From: Anaerolineae bacterium
GTDB taxonomy: Bacteria; Chloroflexota; Anaerolineae; Aggregatilineales; Aggregatilineaceae
NCBI GenBank assembly: GCA_018432315.1
Contig: JAHDLB010000025.1
Coordinates: 62,001-126,000 of the forward strand
DNA length: 64,000 bases
Reading direction: 5' to 3'
Part shown: positions 4,024 to 25,187 of the stretch, piece after piece
Position numbering within the stretch: the stretch's first letter is position 1
Layout: each line of letters begins with the position of its first letter
Program-made: the position numbers and the translations under genes
The notes under the pieces: generated by a model
What the model was told of the DNA's origin: nothing
The model's database searches: none
The model's input: the letters and a program-made list of their open reading frames with translations, nothing else

Positions 4024-4100
4024 TGGTGACCCTGAGAGGACTCGAACCTCTAACCAATTGATTAAGAGTCAACTGCTCTGCCAAATTGAGCTACAGGGCC
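4024..4100 (-). tRNA. tRNA-Lys(CTT)
   Basis: Read on the minus strand, 77 nt including an encoded CCA. The acceptor stem is GGCCCTG with CAGGGTC (one G-U), discriminator A. The anticodon stem is GTTGA with TCAAT around the loop CTCTTAA, giving anticodon CTT. The T-arm is GAGG-TTCGAGT-CCTC. It is charged with lysine and reads AAG. An intrinsic terminator follows within ten bases; that terminator is duplicated 961 bp away. Confidence 0.95.
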
Positions 4101-18271: not shown

Positions 18272-19234
18272 GTGACAACCCGCCCGACTTACTGCCCCGC
18301 CTGTGGGGAGAGGCTCGTCCACCGCGAGGTTGGTGGACGAGCGCGTTTATCGTGCCCGGCGTGCGGCTACGTTCACTATCACAACCCCGTGCCCGGTGTC
18401 GGCGTGATCATCGAGATGGATGATGGCGTGGTGCTCGTCAAGCGCGGGGGGAAAGTCAAGCAGGGCCATTGGGCGCTGCCGTCCGGGTACATCGAGGCCG
18501 ACGAGAGCGTCGAAGAGGCGGCCATCCGCGAGAGCCGCGAGGAAACCGGCCTGGACGTCGAGCTGATCGACCTGCTGGGGATCTATTCCTTTCCCGAAGG
18601 GCCACCGTCGAGCGGCATCATCGTGTTCTACCGGGCGCGCCCGGTCGGCGGCGGGCTGCGCGCCGGGGACGACGCGCAGGAGGTGCGCGTTTTCCAGCCC
18701 GAAGACGCCCCGCCGATGCCCTTCCGCACCCACCGCGAAGCCTTCCAGCGCTGGCAGGCGCTGACCCGCTCCGCCGCGGCCACCCTGCCCCAGGAGCCAG
18801 GGTTCCACATCCGGCAGGCCGAGCTGTCCGACAGCCAGGCCGTGCTGGACCTGATGCGCCTGATCGACGCGAACCTCGCCCTCTCGCCGGGGGACTGGCA
18901 GGCGGTCGTACAGCGCTTCGCCGAGCGGCAGACGATCAGCGTCTACGTGGCCGAGACCAACGCCTCGCCCGCGCAGGTGATCGGCTTCGTGGCGATGTCG
19001 CTCGTCCAGGCGCTGACCGGCGGGCGCGGCTGGATCGAAGACATGGCCGTCGCCCTCGACTACCGGGGCGAAGGCGTGGGCGCGGCGCTGTTGGAGGAGG
19101 CGCTCCGCCACGCCAACCGGCTCAACCTGACGCACCTCTATGTGAACATCGAGCGAGGCAGCCCGGCAGCGCGCGCGTTCTACCAGGCGTCGGGTTTTCA
19201 GGAAAGCTCGATCTCGTATCTGCGCATTCGCTGA
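18272..19234 (+). CDS. Zinc-ribbon NUDIX hydrolase fused to a GNAT acetyltransferase
   Basis: A 320-residue fusion. Residues 8-33 hold two CPAC pairs forming a NudC-like zinc ribbon. Residues about 42-150 form a NUDIX domain with the full box GYIEADESVEEAA ... REETGLDVEL, which hydrolyses nucleoside-diphosphate-linked compounds. Residues about 170-320 form a GNAT acetyltransferase with VALDYRGEGVGAALLEEAL, the acetyl-CoA loop, and ARAFYQASGF. Start is GTG, with AAGGAT upstream. The two activities on one chain suggest a shared metabolite, but neither substrate is known. It follows rpoD with a 24-bp gap. Confidence 0.88.
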   Translation: MTTRPTYCPACGERLVHREVGGRARLSCPACGYVHYHNPVPGVGVIIEMDDGVVLVKRGGKVKQGHWALPSGYIEADESVEEAAIRESREETGLDVELIDLLGIYSFPEGPPSSGIIVFYRARPVGGGLRAGDDAQEVRVFQPEDAPPMPFRTHREAFQRWQALTRSAAATLPQEPGFHIRQAELSDSQAVLDLMRLIDANLALSPGDWQAVVQRFAERQTISVYVAETNASPAQVIGFVAMSLVQALTGGRGWIEDMAVALDYRGEGVGAALLEEALRHANRLNLTHLYVNIERGSPAARAFYQASGFQESSISYLRIR

Positions 19235-19296: not shown

Positions 19297-20541
19297 ATGC
19301 GCTTTCGACGTTCCTTTGCGCTGGTCCTCGCCGCGCTGGTGATCGCCCTCGCCGCCTGCCAGAAGGCCGAAGAGGCGCCGACTCCCACGCCGGACCAGGC
19401 CAGTTTCGAGGCCGCGAGCACGCTCTTCGCCCGCCCCCCGCGCGAGGTACCGCCCACACCGACCGTCACGCCCGTCAGCGCCGTCGAGCTGGAGCTCAAC
19501 CGGTCGATCGCGCGCATGGAGCAGGCCGTCCTGGCGCAGGACAAGGACGGATACATGGCCTACGTCTCGGAGCGCGATCCCCTGTTCTGGGCCGAGCATT
19601 CGCGCTGGGCGCAGGACTGGGTCGATTCGCCCCTCGAACGCTTCGACATCGAGCTGTACGGCATCCGGTCCGATACGCCGGATACGGCCACGGCGCGCAT
19701 GACGATCCTCTGGACGCAGCAGGGCCGCGTGTATGCCGGGTCGGCGGGCGGCGCGACGATCTCGGCCATTTTCTACTTCGAGGACGACCGCTGGCGGTTT
19801 GGCGGCGAGGACTGGCGCACGCTCGAAACGGACGGCATCCGGCTGACCTATTTCTCCGATCCCATCGTCGATCACAGCGAGCAGGCCAACGCCGTGGCCG
19901 AGTTCCTGCCTGGCATCTACCGGACGATCACCGGCGCGCTCGATTTCACGCCGGACGCCGTCGCGCCGATCCGGATCTACGACAACACCGCCACGATCCA
20001 GACGATGACCCGCCTCTCGATGCCGCGCATCACGACCTGGAACGAGCCGGGCGAGGGCATCAAGATCGCGCTCGGCCCCAACGAGCTGCCCCCCACCGAG
20101 CCGCAGATCAGCCGCGCGTTCACGCGCTTCGTCCTGTACGAGATGGCCGGCGGGACGCATGGCGGCTTCCCATGGTGGCTGGAGGAGGGGATCGCCGAGT
20201 TCGGCGGCAACCTGCTGAACACGCTCAGCCACCGCAACCGGGTCGTGCAGCGGGTCGCGGCGCGGTCCCTGGCCCCGGAGGGCGCCGACGAGCGCCTGAT
20301 CGCCTGGGACAGCATCGAAACCCGGCCCGACTGGCCGCCCGACGAGCTGCAGGTGGCCGCCGACCAGGGCTTCTCGTTCGTGCAGTTCGTGACGGAGACG
20401 TTCGGCGAGGAAGCGCGCAACGCGTGGATCGGCGCGATCGCGGCTGACGATCCGCTCGACGACGCGTGCACGGCGCACCTGGGCGCCGGCTTCGCCGAGT
20501 TGGACGAGCAGTGGCGCGCGTGGCTGGCCGAACAGCTATGA
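19297..20541 (+). CDS. Lipoprotein with a degenerate MA-type (gluzincin) peptidase fold
   Basis: A 414-residue lipoprotein with lipobox LAAC in the first 25 residues and a short Pro/Thr-rich linker. Residues about 65-190 form an NTF2-like region (AVLAQDKDGYMAYVSERDP). A C-terminal peptidase-MA-like part follows, with WWLEEGIAEFGG and the usual late QGFSFVQFVTETFG and LDEQWRAWL. The zinc-binding HExxH should stand in FVLYEMAGGTHGG, but both His are replaced (Tyr and Gly), so catalysis is unlikely. Start at 19297 (or GTG 19294) has GGAGAG upstream. It ends 37 bp before the leader promoter of the ABC exporter. Confidence 0.7.
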   Translation: MRFRRSFALVLAALVIALAACQKAEEAPTPTPDQASFEAASTLFARPPREVPPTPTVTPVSAVELELNRSIARMEQAVLAQDKDGYMAYVSERDPLFWAEHSRWAQDWVDSPLERFDIELYGIRSDTPDTATARMTILWTQQGRVYAGSAGGATISAIFYFEDDRWRFGGEDWRTLETDGIRLTYFSDPIVDHSEQANAVAEFLPGIYRTITGALDFTPDAVAPIRIYDNTATIQTMTRLSMPRITTWNEPGEGIKIALGPNELPPTEPQISRAFTRFVLYEMAGGTHGGFPWWLEEGIAEFGGNLLNTLSHRNRVVQRVAARSLAPEGADERLIAWDSIETRPDWPPDELQVAADQGFSFVQFVTETFGEEARNAWIGAIAADDPLDDACTAHLGAGFAELDEQWRAWLAEQL

Positions 20542-20578
20542 GGCAGCATCGCATCTTAACGTTTGTGGCAAGAAGTGC

Positions 20579-20607
20579 TTGACTCCGCTTTGATGCCATG
20601 CTATACT
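20579..20607 (+). promoter_or_regulatory. Strong promoter of the ABC-exporter leader
   Basis: TTGACT (20579-20584) and TATACT (20602-20607) with an exact 17-base spacer; predicted start near 20614, giving a leader of about 318 nt before the exporter ATG. Confidence 0.8.
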
Positions 20608-20640
20608 GCCGTCATCTTAAGAAAGGAGTAGGGCGCAAGA

Positions 20641-20733
20641 ATGGTCAATAACCTGTTTTTCACCCGTATGCGTGGGCAAGCCGTCAATGCGTTTGGCATT
20701 GATCCTTGCCGTATTGCGCCTGCTCGCCATTAG
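20641..20733 (+). CDS. 30-codon leader peptide of the ABC exporter
   Basis: A short frame encoding MVNNLFFTRMRGQ ... CRIAPARH, with AAAGGAG upstream and a strong promoter before it. There is no run of one amino acid, so general ribosome stalling (for example by an antibiotic) is a likelier signal than a single amino acid. Within the coding region lies a hairpin (GGCAAG 20675-20680 with CTTGCC 20705-20710, and TCAATGC 20684-20690 with GCATTGA 20696-20702), comparable to a pause hairpin. The stop is 25 bases before terminator 1. Existence of the peptide is inferred from context. Confidence 0.65.
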   Translation: MVNNLFFTRMRGQAVNAFGIDPCRIAPARH

Positions 20734-20836
20734 ACAGCTTCCTGTGTAGAACAATGGCCGCGGGCGCGATGCCCGCGGTTTTATTTTGCAGCGGTTCTCC
20801 GTACCCGGAGTCCGCCGACCAGCAAAAGCCGTGGGC
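20711..20836 (+). promoter_or_regulatory. Antiterminator relay in the ABC-exporter leader
   Basis: Bases 20711-20723, inside the end of the leader ORF, can pair with 20760-20772 over 13 consecutive positions (10 Watson-Crick, 3 G-U), consuming the 5' arm of terminator 1. The freed 3' arm of terminator 1 plus its T-run (20771-20782) can pair with 20825-20836 over 12 positions (10 Watson-Crick, 2 G-U), consuming the 5' arm of terminator 2. Competing with both, GGCGCAA (20632-20638), just before the leader ATG, pairs perfectly with TTGCGCC (20714-20720), so an untranslated leader would favour termination. Confidence 0.65.
20758..20787 (+). terminator. Leader terminator 1
   Basis: A perfect 8-bp GC stem (CCGCGGGC 20758-20765, GCCCGCGG 20771-20778) with a five-base loop, followed by TTTTATTTT. 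Confidence 0.88.
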
Positions 20837-20858
20837 CACCGACCCGCGGCTTTTTTTT
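20824..20858 (+). terminator. Leader terminator 2
   Basis: A 12-bp stem with one G-U (AAAAGCCGTGGG 20824-20835 with CCCGCGGCTTTT 20843-20854), a seven-base loop and a run of eight T. It stands 73 bases before the exporter ATG, so transcription must pass two terminators. Confidence 0.88.
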
Positions 20859-20931
20859 GTCGCGGCGAACAGGCACCAACCGGGTAACACGACGTTTCAG
20901 GCAGGCAGCACAACCAAGGAGTTCACAACCC

Positions 20932-21855
20932 ATGAACACACCACGCTTTGCAGACCAGGACGCGCTCGTCGTCCAGGACGTCGTCAAGCGTTTCAACGTG
21001 GCTTCACAACCCTGGTGGCGGCAGTGGTTCGGCCATACCACCAACGGCCAGGAGCCTGCCAACGGAGAGCCGAAACCGCTCAAGGCGCGCCGAGGCAAAG
21101 AATTGATCACCGCGGTGGACCACGTCTCGTTCACCGTCCGGCGCCGCGAGATCTTCGGCGTCCTCGGGCCGAATGGCTCGGGCAAATCCACCCTGATCCG
21201 GCTGCTGTCGACGCTGCTGCTGCCGGATGAAGGCACGGTACACGTCTTTGGCCTGGACGTGGCAAAACACGAGATGCAGGTCAAGCGGCTGATCAACCGC
21301 GTATCAGTCGAGGCGGCCTTCTTCAAGAAGCTGAGCCCGAAGGAGAACCTGCTCTATGGGGCGCGGCTGTACGGCGTCTCCGGGGCGGAAGCCGACCGCA
21401 AGGCGCGCGAGATTCTCAAGCGGCTGGGGCTGCGCGAGAGCAGCTACACCAGCCCGATGGAAGACATGAGCCGCGGCATGCAGCAGAAGGTCGCCATCGC
21501 GCGCGCGTTTCTCACCCAGCCGATCCTACTGCTGCTGGACGAGCCGACGACCGGCCTCGACCCGCGCTCGAAGCTCGAAGTGCAGTCGTTCGTCAACGAG
21601 CTGCGTGACGTCCACGACGCCACCATCCTGATCACGACGCACGACATGAACGAAGCCGACGCCTTGTGCGACCGCATCGCCATCCTCGACGATGGCAAGA
21701 TCGTGGCGATGGACACGCCCGAGGGGCTCAAGCAGTTGATCAACCGGAACGGGCACGCGCCCACGCTCGAGGACGTTTTCATGGAGCTGACCGGCAAGGA
21801 ACTGATCGAGAAAGACGACCTGGAAGACTTCGAGCCGGAAAAGGTCCTCACCTAA
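20932..21855 (+). CDS. ABC-2 type exporter ATP-binding protein (DrrA/NatA-like)
   Basis: A 307-residue cytoplasmic ATPase. Walker A is GPNGSGKST near residue 80. The signature motif is the variant MSRGMQQKVAIARA in place of LSGGQ. Walker B is LLLLDEPTTGLDP, and a switch His is present (ITTHDMNEADALCD). A C-terminal regulatory tail extends past residue 270, and an insertion of about 40 residues precedes the Walker A strand. Such proteins pair with an ABC-2 permease to export drugs, lipids or glycans. The partner permease starts 15 bp downstream. Expression is likely controlled by the two-terminator leader upstream. Confidence 0.9.
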   Translation: MNTPRFADQDALVVQDVVKRFNVASQPWWRQWFGHTTNGQEPANGEPKPLKARRGKELITAVDHVSFTVRRREIFGVLGPNGSGKSTLIRLLSTLLLPDEGTVHVFGLDVAKHEMQVKRLINRVSVEAAFFKKLSPKENLLYGARLYGVSGAEADRKAREILKRLGLRESSYTSPMEDMSRGMQQKVAIARAFLTQPILLLLDEPTTGLDPRSKLEVQSFVNELRDVHDATILITTHDMNEADALCDRIAILDDGKIVAMDTPEGLKQLINRNGHAPTLEDVFMELTGKELIEKDDLEDFEPEKVLT

Positions 21856-21870
21856 AGGAGACACACAGCG

Positions 21871-22701
21871 ATGATCCAGGGACTACGCTTGGAGATGCGC
21901 CAGTCGTACGCCTTCGTAGCGCGAAACTTCAATCTCGTGAAACGCTACTGGGGCTGGGAAGTTGTCTGGCTGGCCTACTCGATTGCCAACTCGCTATCCG
22001 TGACGTTCATCGGGGCCGGTGCGGGCGAGATCACCGGCGAAACCCAGATCAACACCAACTTCCTGATCACCTACCTGCTGATAGGGACCCTGGTGTGGCG
22101 GTTCCTCGCCAGCATCTTCAACAACATCAGCGAGATGATCGCCTGGGAACGGTGGGAAGGCACCATCGAATACACCTTCATGGCGCCGGTGCACCGCTTC
22201 AACCAGATGATCGGACAGACGATCTTCGCCATCCTCTACAGCCTGATCTTCACCGTGATCATCGGCGTAGTCGTGGCGGCGTTCTTCGATCTCGACTTCG
22301 GCAACGCGGACTTCACCAGCGCGACGATCATCCTGCTGGTGGGCAGCCTGTCGTTCGTGGGCATCGGCGTGGTGGCTTCCATCCTGCCCCTGCTCTACCC
22401 CGAGCGCGGCGCGCAGATGACCAACATCGTGCAGGCGTTCTTCCTGCTGGTGTCCGGCATCTACTACCCGATCAGCGTGCTGCCCGAATGGCTGCAAGTG
22501 CTGGCGCGCATCTCCCCGGCCACCTACGTGCTCGAAGGGATGCGGTCGGCGCTGCTGCCGGGCACTGTCGAGGCGAGTCCGATGAGTTTCGTCCCGCCCC
22601 TCCTGTTGATGGGCGTCGTCATGCTCCCGCTGGGCATCTACCTGTTCCAGCGCGCGGAGCGGTATACCAAACGCACGGGCAAGCTCAAGCGCAACGGATA
22701 A
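21871..22701 (+). CDS. ABC-2 type exporter permease
   Basis: A 276-residue membrane protein with six hydrophobic segments. Seen: an N-terminal cytoplasmic part, MAPVHRFNQMIGQTIF between segments 2 and 3, the typical ABC-2 segment SGIYYPISVLPEWLQVLARISPATY before the last helix, and a basic tail. It forms the channel for the ATPase encoded just upstream; AAAGGAG precedes the start. The substrate is unknown. Similar gene pairs confer drug resistance or export surface polymers. Confidence 0.9.
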   Translation: MIQGLRLEMRQSYAFVARNFNLVKRYWGWEVVWLAYSIANSLSVTFIGAGAGEITGETQINTNFLITYLLIGTLVWRFLASIFNNISEMIAWERWEGTIEYTFMAPVHRFNQMIGQTIFAILYSLIFTVIIGVVVAAFFDLDFGNADFTSATIILLVGSLSFVGIGVVASILPLLYPERGAQMTNIVQAFFLLVSGIYYPISVLPEWLQVLARISPATYVLEGMRSALLPGTVEASPMSFVPPLLLMGVVMLPLGIYLFQRAERYTKRTGKLKRNG

Positions 22702-24575: not shown

Positions 24576-25187
24576 ATGATTAAAGCGTTCATCTTCGACT
24601 TCGATGAGGTGCTGGTCCGCACGGAAGACGCCAGCCCGCACCACGCATGGGACCAACGGCTGGGGCTGGCCCCCGGCAGCGTCGAGCGCGCGATCCGTCA
24701 CAGCGACCTGTGGATTCAGGCCCAGCTCGGGCGCGTCACGCCCAAGGCGTTTTGGACCGGCGTGGCCGAAATGCTGTACATGCGGCGCGAAGATGTCGCC
24801 GAGCTGCGTCGTGATTTCTACGGCGGCGACCGGCTCAACTACCGGCTGGTCGAGCTGCTGCGCGACCTGCGCGAGCGCGGCTGCACGCTGGCCCTGCTCG
24901 CCAACGACTCGATCGAGCTGGAAACCCGGCTGGCCGAGTTGGGACTCGACGCGCTGTTCGACCACGTCCTGATCTCGGCTCAGATCGGCGTGATGAAGCC
25001 GGACGTCACGGCTTTTCGCGTCGCCCTGCAAACCGTCGGGGCGGCGCCCTGCGAAGCCCTGCTGATCGACGACTCGCTGACCCACGTGCGCGCGGCCCAA
25101 TCCCTGGGCATGCCTACCATCCTGGTCCGGCACGGCACGGACGTGCGCGCCGAGCTTCAGCCCTACCTCGACAATCCCGCCCCCTAG
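24576..25187 (+). CDS. HAD-superfamily hydrolase, subfamily IA
   Basis: A 203-residue protein with the four HAD motifs: FDFDEVLV (nucleophile Asp and general acid), LLANDSIE (motif II position), KPDVTAFRVAL (Lys of motif III), and LLIDDSLTHVRAA (acidic pair of motif IV). The cap is the helical C1 type, between residues 15 and 90. These enzymes are mostly phosphatases or phosphoglucomutases; the substrate is unknown. Confidence 0.85.
   Translation: MIKAFIFDFDEVLVRTEDASPHHAWDQRLGLAPGSVERAIRHSDLWIQAQLGRVTPKAFWTGVAEMLYMRREDVAELRRDFYGGDRLNYRLVELLRDLRERGCTLALLANDSIELETRLAELGLDALFDHVLISAQIGVMKPDVTAFRVALQTVGAAPCEALLIDDSLTHVRAAQSLGMPTILVRHGTDVRAELQPYLDNPAP

Follow-up and report, generated by a model that had tools for sequence, protein, structure and literature searches.

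We analyzed a 64,000-nt stretch of DNA from an Anaerolineae bacterium (contig JAHDLB010000025.1; genome of 5.69 Mb in 66 contigs), called the window below, and conclude that the leader in front of its ABC-2 exporter operon (20579-20931) is probably a transcription attenuator under ribosome control, with two consecutive terminators, in which a drug-stalled ribosome would open both terminators by the hand-over of a strand from the first to the second. We give this reading a probability of about 0.7. The parts of the leader, their conservation, the alternative helices, the enrichment of Arg-X-Arg (R-x-R) in the leader peptides, and the kinds of downstream genes were observed directly.

All elements of the leader lie on the plus strand. 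A sigma-70-type promoter found by sequence scan (20579-20607; TTGACT-N17-TATACT, with TG before the -10 box) is followed by the Shine-Dalgarno sequence AAAGGAG (20622-20628) of a leader open reading frame (ORF) of 30 codons, MVNNLFFTRMRGQAVNAFGIDPCRIAPARH (20641-20733). Its codons 9-11, Arg-Met-Arg (20665-20673), are the predicted site of drug-dependent stalling, and a hairpin inside the ORF (20685-20701, -7.4 kcal/mol) may serve as a pause hairpin. Segment 2 (20711-20723) can pair with the 5ʹ half of terminator 1, forming an antiterminator, or in part with segment 1 (GGCGCAA, 20632-20638). Terminator 1 (20756-20787, -20.0 kcal/mol; 3ʹ arm 20771-20779, T tract to 20787) and terminator 2 (20824-20858, -19.0 kcal/mol) are separated by a spacer hairpin (20797-20810, -6.3 kcal/mol). 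The original prediction, made from the sequence alone, had described the near-consensus promoter, the leader ORF with its ribosome binding site and internal hairpin, and two intrinsic terminators ahead of an ABC-2 exporter; all of these were present, and the exporter was confirmed by PF00005 and PF01061.

The two alternative helices also agreed base for base with what had been claimed. The antiterminator (20711-20723 with 20760-20772) pairs at 13 of 13 positions, three of them G-U, and the relay helix, in which 20771-20782 of terminator 1 pairs with the 5ʹ side of terminator 2 (20825-20836), pairs at 12 of 12 positions with two G-U pairs. In 2000 shuffles of the neighbouring sequences, the chance of such helices was 0.2% for the 13-pair and 0.25% for the 12-pair helix. 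A third helix, between segment 1 and 20714-20720, consists of Watson-Crick pairs at all seven positions and was proposed to hold the system off.

We propose that the switch would work as follows. Without drug, the ribosome would reach the leader stop codon and sit over segment 2, and both terminators would form. A drug, most likely macrolide- or ketolide-like, would stall the ribosome at Arg-Met-Arg and leave segment 2 free, and free segment 2 would take the 5ʹ half of terminator 1 before the 3ʹ arm of this terminator is made. The unpaired 3ʹ arm would then capture the 5ʹ arm of terminator 2 before terminator 2 is completed, and the polymerase would read through into the exporter genes. In an untranslated leader, the helix of segments 1 and 2 may keep the system shut, a step that we regard as doubtful. 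The stalling, the drug, the kinetic order, and the read-through are the parts that we infer.

The tandem-terminator leader is a conserved family spread through one class of Chloroflexota. A covariance model covering segment 2 to terminator 2 was built from 16 sequences including the window, with the two terminator stems as its only structure. At E values up to 0.01, it gave matches in 124 of the 298 genomes searched from the class, and in 68 of the 190 good-quality ones. In a sample of the phylum, E values of up to 1e-6 were reached in 14/301 genomes, and two of these do not belong to the class. A control consisted of 21 genomes from the search for relatives of the exporter ATPase. The 18 from other phyla gave one match (E 0.0019); of the three from Chloroflexota, Anaerolinea thermolimosa gave three matches (E 1.7e-11, 9.2e-5, and 1.9e-4), another gave one (7.7e-4), and the third gave none. 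The first two matches in A. thermolimosa precede an ABC-2 ATPase and an ABC-F-like ORF, and the third precedes a further ORF. When the whole window was compared with Rfam 15, only a tRNA elsewhere reached its gathering threshold, and no Rfam family reached threshold on 19 related loci. MicX, the Rfam candidate for the leader region, was rejected with 19.2 bits against a cut-off of 75. The covariance-model search found no second leader in the own genome: the single sense-strand match was the window leader, and a match on the wrong strand was rejected as the palindrome read backwards.

For the comparisons below, we examined 107 class loci (27 + 80, down to E 8.9e-6; the own locus and two known orthologues were set aside), which together with 20 orthologues made a set of 127 loci. 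Two terminators at a fitting distance were recognized in 100 of them. The weak match L142 (E 8.9e-6) lies before a leucyl-tRNA synthetase-like ORF, and may represent an unrelated attenuator in which the tandem terminators are similar.

Searching 61 genomes (the own genome and 60 others) for orthologues of the exporter ATPase gave 27 loci including the window (L002-L028), and the leader was recognizable upstream in 20 of them. In L012 and L028 the leader was further upstream, as seen in L151 and L172, which cover more of the respective contigs, and four loci ending with their contigs could not be judged (L008, L009, L025, and L027). The leader was thus kept in 22 of the 23 judgeable orthologous operons. 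Extra ORFs stood between leader and ATPase in L016, L017, L019, and L021: those of L016, L017, and L021 are small and start with MTDLRTYQTLAYLT or MLELRADQTLAYLT, and L019 has a different one of about 135 codons. In L151, on the contig of L012, the leader is some 1.2 kb upstream of the ATPase, and the intervening gene looks like a RIO-type kinase by eye. We aligned 18 orthologue leaders over the region that begins with the Shine-Dalgarno sequence and ends with terminator 2. Segment 2 of L016 and L017 was in a different reading frame from the other orthologues, and therefore is kept there as RNA, not as peptide.

The antiterminator was analyzed first by duplex energy. Over 124 loci, the best duplex that the 5ʹ half of terminator 1 can form with the sequence upstream of this terminator averaged -21.4 kcal/mol, compared with -18.6 kcal/mol when partners were permuted among loci (z -12.3) and -16.7 kcal/mol with shuffled upstream stretches; in a few loci (e.g. 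L003 and L004), the best duplex was outside segment 2. Covariation was counted in alignment A3, which was built from 100 hand-chosen loci among the 127, holds 98 leaders and one wrong-strand row (L024 and L026 were below the limit), and was fitted to the terminators, not to the antiterminator helix. The wrong-strand row is 1 of the 99 rows in the pair counts for the antiterminator, the relay, and the mirror helix introduced below, and was excluded from conditional and nonredundant tallies. The antiterminator had 90.3% standard pairs, and 6 of 10 pairs changed on both sides, with 44 such cells against 9.6 in shuffled alignments. For example, GTGCGCC is replaced by GTGTGTCTG in L073 and L102, accompanied by CAGAC in terminator 1.

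The relay helix was compared with the opposite diagonal, a mirror helix of the terminator 1 5ʹ arm with the terminator 2 3ʹ arm, as a control. In the 100 two-terminator loci, the relay averaged -18.8 kcal/mol, compared with -15.0 kcal/mol when permuted (z -13.8), and the mirror -16.1 kcal/mol, compared with -13.8 kcal/mol. The relay had 93.0% standard pairs in A3, with double changes in 8 of 10 pairs (74 cells vs 19.4 shuffled); the mirror had 93.1%, with double changes in 7 of 9 pairs (61 cells vs 25.5). The mirror covaries too, since every arm is constrained by two of the others and all four are thereby linked. The excess specific to the relay is therefore smaller than the raw figures, and the covariation of the mirror counts against the hand-over.

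Since the raw counts of the two helices were alike, we added conditional tests and an asymmetry of energies. Where a partner U or G tolerates two bases, the conditional test counts which one is chosen, stratified by column and base. The odds ratios were 31 and 33 for the relay against 9 and 8 for the mirror in 79 nonredundant rows; with all 98 rows, they were 20 and 36 for the relay and 5 and 6 for the mirror. An earlier unstratified run included position 144, and a pooled version, which mixes base classes, was not used. At position 137, L013, L015, L040, and L051 have U in the terminator 1 3ʹ arm and A in the terminator 2 5ʹ arm, compared with C and G in most loci.

These results bear on a rival in which the attenuator is real, but terminator 2 is a backup that arose by duplication of terminator 1, and the complementarity between the terminator 1 3ʹ arm and the terminator 2 5ʹ arm results from the likeness of the arms, without a function of its own. 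Many loci share GGCCGTGGG-type arms as this rival would expect, the mirror helix beats its permuted control (z -8.6) and covaries, and terminator 2 outcompetes the relay at equilibrium in the majority of loci; the relay was stronger than terminator 2's own arms in 37/100. Duplication followed by drift, however, would favour neither diagonal, whereas the relay was stronger than the mirror in 72/100 loci and 53/74 nonredundant ones (p 2.6e-4), with conditional odds ratios 3 to 4 times higher. Loci in which the stems of the two terminators differ also kept the relay and not the mirror: L044 (-12.4 vs -2.3 kcal/mol), L068 (-15.1 vs -5.0), L089 (-15.4 vs -3.8), and L026 (-16.9 vs -5.8). In L026, the loop bases of terminator 2 also complement the terminator 1 3ʹ arm by eye. 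Moreover, induction would be blocked if the signal left a backup terminator closed. We consider the backup unlikely. The covariation check suggested with the original prediction thus gave changes on both sides with antiterminator and relay kept; relatives with the terminators but not the alternative helices were the opposite of what was found, and the relay beat its mirror control.

The hairpins next to these helices were also compared. In relatives, too, the sequence separating the terminators is folded (mean z -1.45; 47 of 82 below -1), and a folded spacer might bring the relay strands together. The hairpin inside the leader ORF gave a weak signal (mean z -0.60 in 115 loci).

The geometry of the leaders would suit ribosome control. 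The stop codon is a median of 9 nt behind segment 2, and within -6 to 20 nt in 98 of 115 loci; a terminating ribosome would therefore cover segment 2. In 36/37 leaders, R-x-R precedes segment 2 by 17 nt or more, and a ribosome stalled there would stop short of segment 2. When nascent RNA was folded before the 3ʹ arm of terminator 1 is made, the antiterminator exceeded 0.5 in 24 of 94 loci with a terminating ribosome, in 66 with a stalled ribosome, and in 66 with no ribosome; it did so in 87 when all RNA 5ʹ of the stalled ribosome was covered. In the window, it was 0.998 and 0.997 without ribosome and with a stalled ribosome, respectively. Before the 3ʹ arm of terminator 2 is made, the relay exceeded 0.5 in 93/94 loci when arm 1 was blocked and in 28/94 when it was free. 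By sequence, covariation, geometry, and folding at nascent lengths, the leader has a mutually exclusive antiterminator whose formation could depend on where the ribosome stands.

Segment 1 is a weaker part of the system. Its helix with segment 2 averaged -18.0 kcal/mol in the orthologues and -12.0 kcal/mol elsewhere (permutation z -8.2 in 115 loci), and at least six Watson-Crick pairs in a row were present in 60 of the 115. The helix is therefore conserved, as well as pairing as described, but its role of holding an untranslated leader off is doubtful: in nascent folding, the antiterminator was as frequent without a ribosome as with a stalled one, which speaks against this role. A ribosome stalled at R-x-R leaves segment 1 uncovered. 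Of the leader-controlled relay as originally predicted, the core is thus supported, and the hold-off claim is weakened.

We then looked for the signal in the leader peptides. A heuristic picker found a leader ORF in 124 of 127 loci, though some picks are doubtful. Many of the peptides end in PCRSAP or PCRIAP plus a few residues; this ending is the translation of segment 2. R-x-R was found in 38/124 leaders, compared with 13.1 expected from shuffling within each peptide (0 of 2000 shuffles reached 38), and in 26 of the 104 class leaders alone, compared with 10.0. Other spacings of arginine were at chance (RR 14 vs 13.6, R..R 10 vs 12.4, and R...R 13 vs 11.9). This excess at the level of residues argues for translation of the leader. 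Arg/Lys-X-Arg/Lys is described as a motif at which ketolides, and macrolides among other motifs, arrest ribosomes with X in the P site (PMC8298421, PMC6851288), and erythromycin is described to arrest ErmDL also without it (PMC8298421). The window leader has a motif of this +x+ type, as in ErmDL, MefAL, and yxjB, and drug-dependent stalling at it is predicted from the peptide. Arg-Met-Arg, to which the original prediction had not pointed, likely gives the signal that is sensed.

Leaders without R-x-R carry motifs of their own, and therefore likely respond to other drugs. By eye, L057 and L090 share KSFR-I/L-EKGG, and L083, L089, and L110 share T-S/G-I/V-V/A-G-A/V-DSRSAP, both groups before acetyltransferase-like ORFs; these groups suggest other inducing drugs. 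In L045, L051, L062, L072, L074, and L080, the last residues encoded by the picked ORF are LS or LP and its TAG falls where segment 2 begins, and this other frame still places a terminating ribosome on segment 2.

Several results weigh against the drug-operated relay. Among the orthologous operons, L022 had no leader in the 900 nt searched, and its genome (G050) gave no model match; L023 kept terminator 1 but had no clear terminator 2. In nascent folding, the terminating ribosome alone stood out; a stalled ribosome could not be told from none. At equilibrium, terminator 1 won in most loci under any ribosome mask (mean 0.90 stalled, 0.94 terminating, and 0.94 without ribosome), and in the window completed terminator 1 won with 0.98 stalled and 0.89 without ribosome; equilibrium folding was thus rejected as uninformative for testing the switch. 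With arm 1 blocked and terminator 2 complete, terminator 2 exceeded 0.5 in 67/94 loci and the relay in 25/94. In the window, the relay led terminator 2 (0.60 vs 0.31) even with arm 1 free, and reached 0.69 with arm 1 blocked. Of the foldings that had been suggested, with the terminator 1 arm blocked and unblocked, the blocked one favoured the relay in nascent RNA and mostly terminator 2 at equilibrium. Since finished terminators prevail in most loci at equilibrium, the switch has to act kinetically. In addition, 86 of 124 leaders have no R-x-R, and arginine could also mean sensing of arginine tRNA.

A rival built on this last point holds that the leader senses arginine supply or generally slow translation, through short charged tRNA-Arg, rather than a drug. 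Arginine is common in the leaders, at 8.5% of core residues, and bmrB of Bacillus subtilis is described as responsive to several inhibitors, with termination that depends on codon choice (PMC4191407). Against this, among the arginine spacings tried, the excess was in R-x-R only, and the 25 of 37 downstream families that were tallied comprised exporters, ABC-F type, GNAT, and MFS. R-x-R also went with exporters (29/58) rather than other genes (10/66, with 0/9 for the ABC-F type), where the classes are rough, motif-based sorting with some exporters sorted as other. We judge arginine sensing improbable, a little more so than the backup terminator.

The downstream genes were taken as the longest ORF behind each leader (103 class proteins), a mechanical choice with a few wrong frames, and were tallied for 25 of 37 Pfam families. 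An ABC ATPase domain was present in 49 of the 103, the ABC-B exporter membrane domain in 13, and the ABC-F-type extension in 8; at least 25 GNAT acetyltransferases, three MFS proteins, three ABC-2 permeases, and three HAD proteins were also found. No rRNA methylase family was among the 25 families tallied. Drug-sensing leaders elsewhere are described to control exporters and ABC-F factors, such as BmrCD (PMC4191407), MsrD (PMC4335068, PMC10314930), and VmlR. We lean somewhat towards a wider reading, in which the leaders of the class are one RNA family that passes a single ribosome event along the RNA by strand hand-over, and which would be a modular platform: differing leader peptides, R-x-R mostly before exporters and others before GNAT, ABC-F-type, and MFS genes, would plug different drugs into one relay.

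The leader of the window sits between a same-strand ORF ending at 20541 and the exporter, which consists of a DrrA-like ATPase (20932-21855, plus strand; PF00005; TIGR01188 with E 8.3e-75 and 251.9 bits, below the family cut-off of 312.45) and an ABC-2 permease (21871-22701, plus strand; PF01061, E 3.7e-19). Named close relatives of the ATPase were from Chloroflexota, mostly metagenome-assembled genomes of Anaerolineae, and the cultured ones include Anaerolinea thermolimosa IMO-1. The position behind an upstream ORF would fit ordinary terminators of an upstream transcript, with the exporter having its own promoter behind them. We regard this as very improbable, because the only promoter-like site in 20000-21400 (1 found vs 0.2 expected from shuffles) precedes the leader, and because conservation of the hairpins goes along with that of the leader ORF, segment 2, and both alternative helices. 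By eye, boxes resembling the window promoter were present upstream of the leaders of relatives.

Elsewhere in the window, a fused NUDIX and GNAT protein (18272-19234) is upstream on the strand of the leader, and a tRNA gene is on the minus strand (4027-4100). A HAD-like ORF (24576-25187) looks by eye like the HAD-like ORFs that immediately follow the leader in L044 and L138.

The attenuator proposed here shares its working principle with the trp-type attenuators, here driven by drug stalling. The leader of ermK has two mutually exclusive folds, one holding both terminators. In ermK of Bacillus licheniformis (ermD family), two adjacent terminators are described behind one macrolide leader peptide (PMC4335068), and tandem terminators under one leader are therefore not new. 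ErmDL, which is related to the ermK leader, is described with Arg-Leu-Arg (PMC10314930, PMC8298421), compared with Arg-Met-Arg here. The ermK leader, however, controls an rRNA methylase, and the likeness noted here is one of description. BmrCD is an ABC-B-type exporter, and some members of the present family precede ABC-B exporters as well. The bmrB-bmrCD operon is described as induced by ribosome-targeting drugs, like the proposed switch, but with one terminator, located inside the bmrB coding region (PMC4191407).

Other systems share single features as far as the cited passages describe them. The mefA/msrD (Mega) leader MTASMRLR has +x+, and an anti-attenuator breaks its terminator to allow macrolide efflux (PMC4335068, PMC10314930), but it has one terminator per leader, and a separate second leader, MsrDL, acts on the second gene. 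B. subtilis yxjB (tlrB) stalls at RYR, also +x+, where Tyr occupies the P site and Arg the A site; the passages on it state that no overlapping antiterminator was identified, and that polymerase pausing and translation attenuation also act (PMC6851288). The rimP-leader of some Gammaproteobacteria has a tandem second terminator with a potential anti-terminator, but belongs to another gene, and the passage on it mentions neither leader peptide nor drug (PMC2965389). In mgtCBR of Salmonella, one leader has two attenuators, but these use two ORFs and different signals and are independent and additive (PMC3641672).

In the open-licence literature of PubMed Central, the matches listed for Chloroflexi, Chloroflexota, or Anaerolineae included no title on such leaders, and those listed for a hand-over between two terminators included no account of it in titles, abstract starts, or passages. 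The original prediction had called the chained rearrangement not known to it; this does not hold for the tandem terminators, known from ermK, but among the matches listed in that literature it does for the hand-over helix. New are the family, its host group, its range of genes, and the comparative support for strand hand-over between terminators. Elsewhere, resistance genes under the control of leader peptides are known mostly from Firmicutes and Actinobacteria.

The family is a marker for finding unknown resistance genes, and its leader peptides help to guess the drugs concerned. Anaerolinea thermolimosa, a cultured species with three matches, makes the relay testable. If true, the relay would explain how one stalled ribosome opens two stops in series, so that the off state is low and inducibility is kept.
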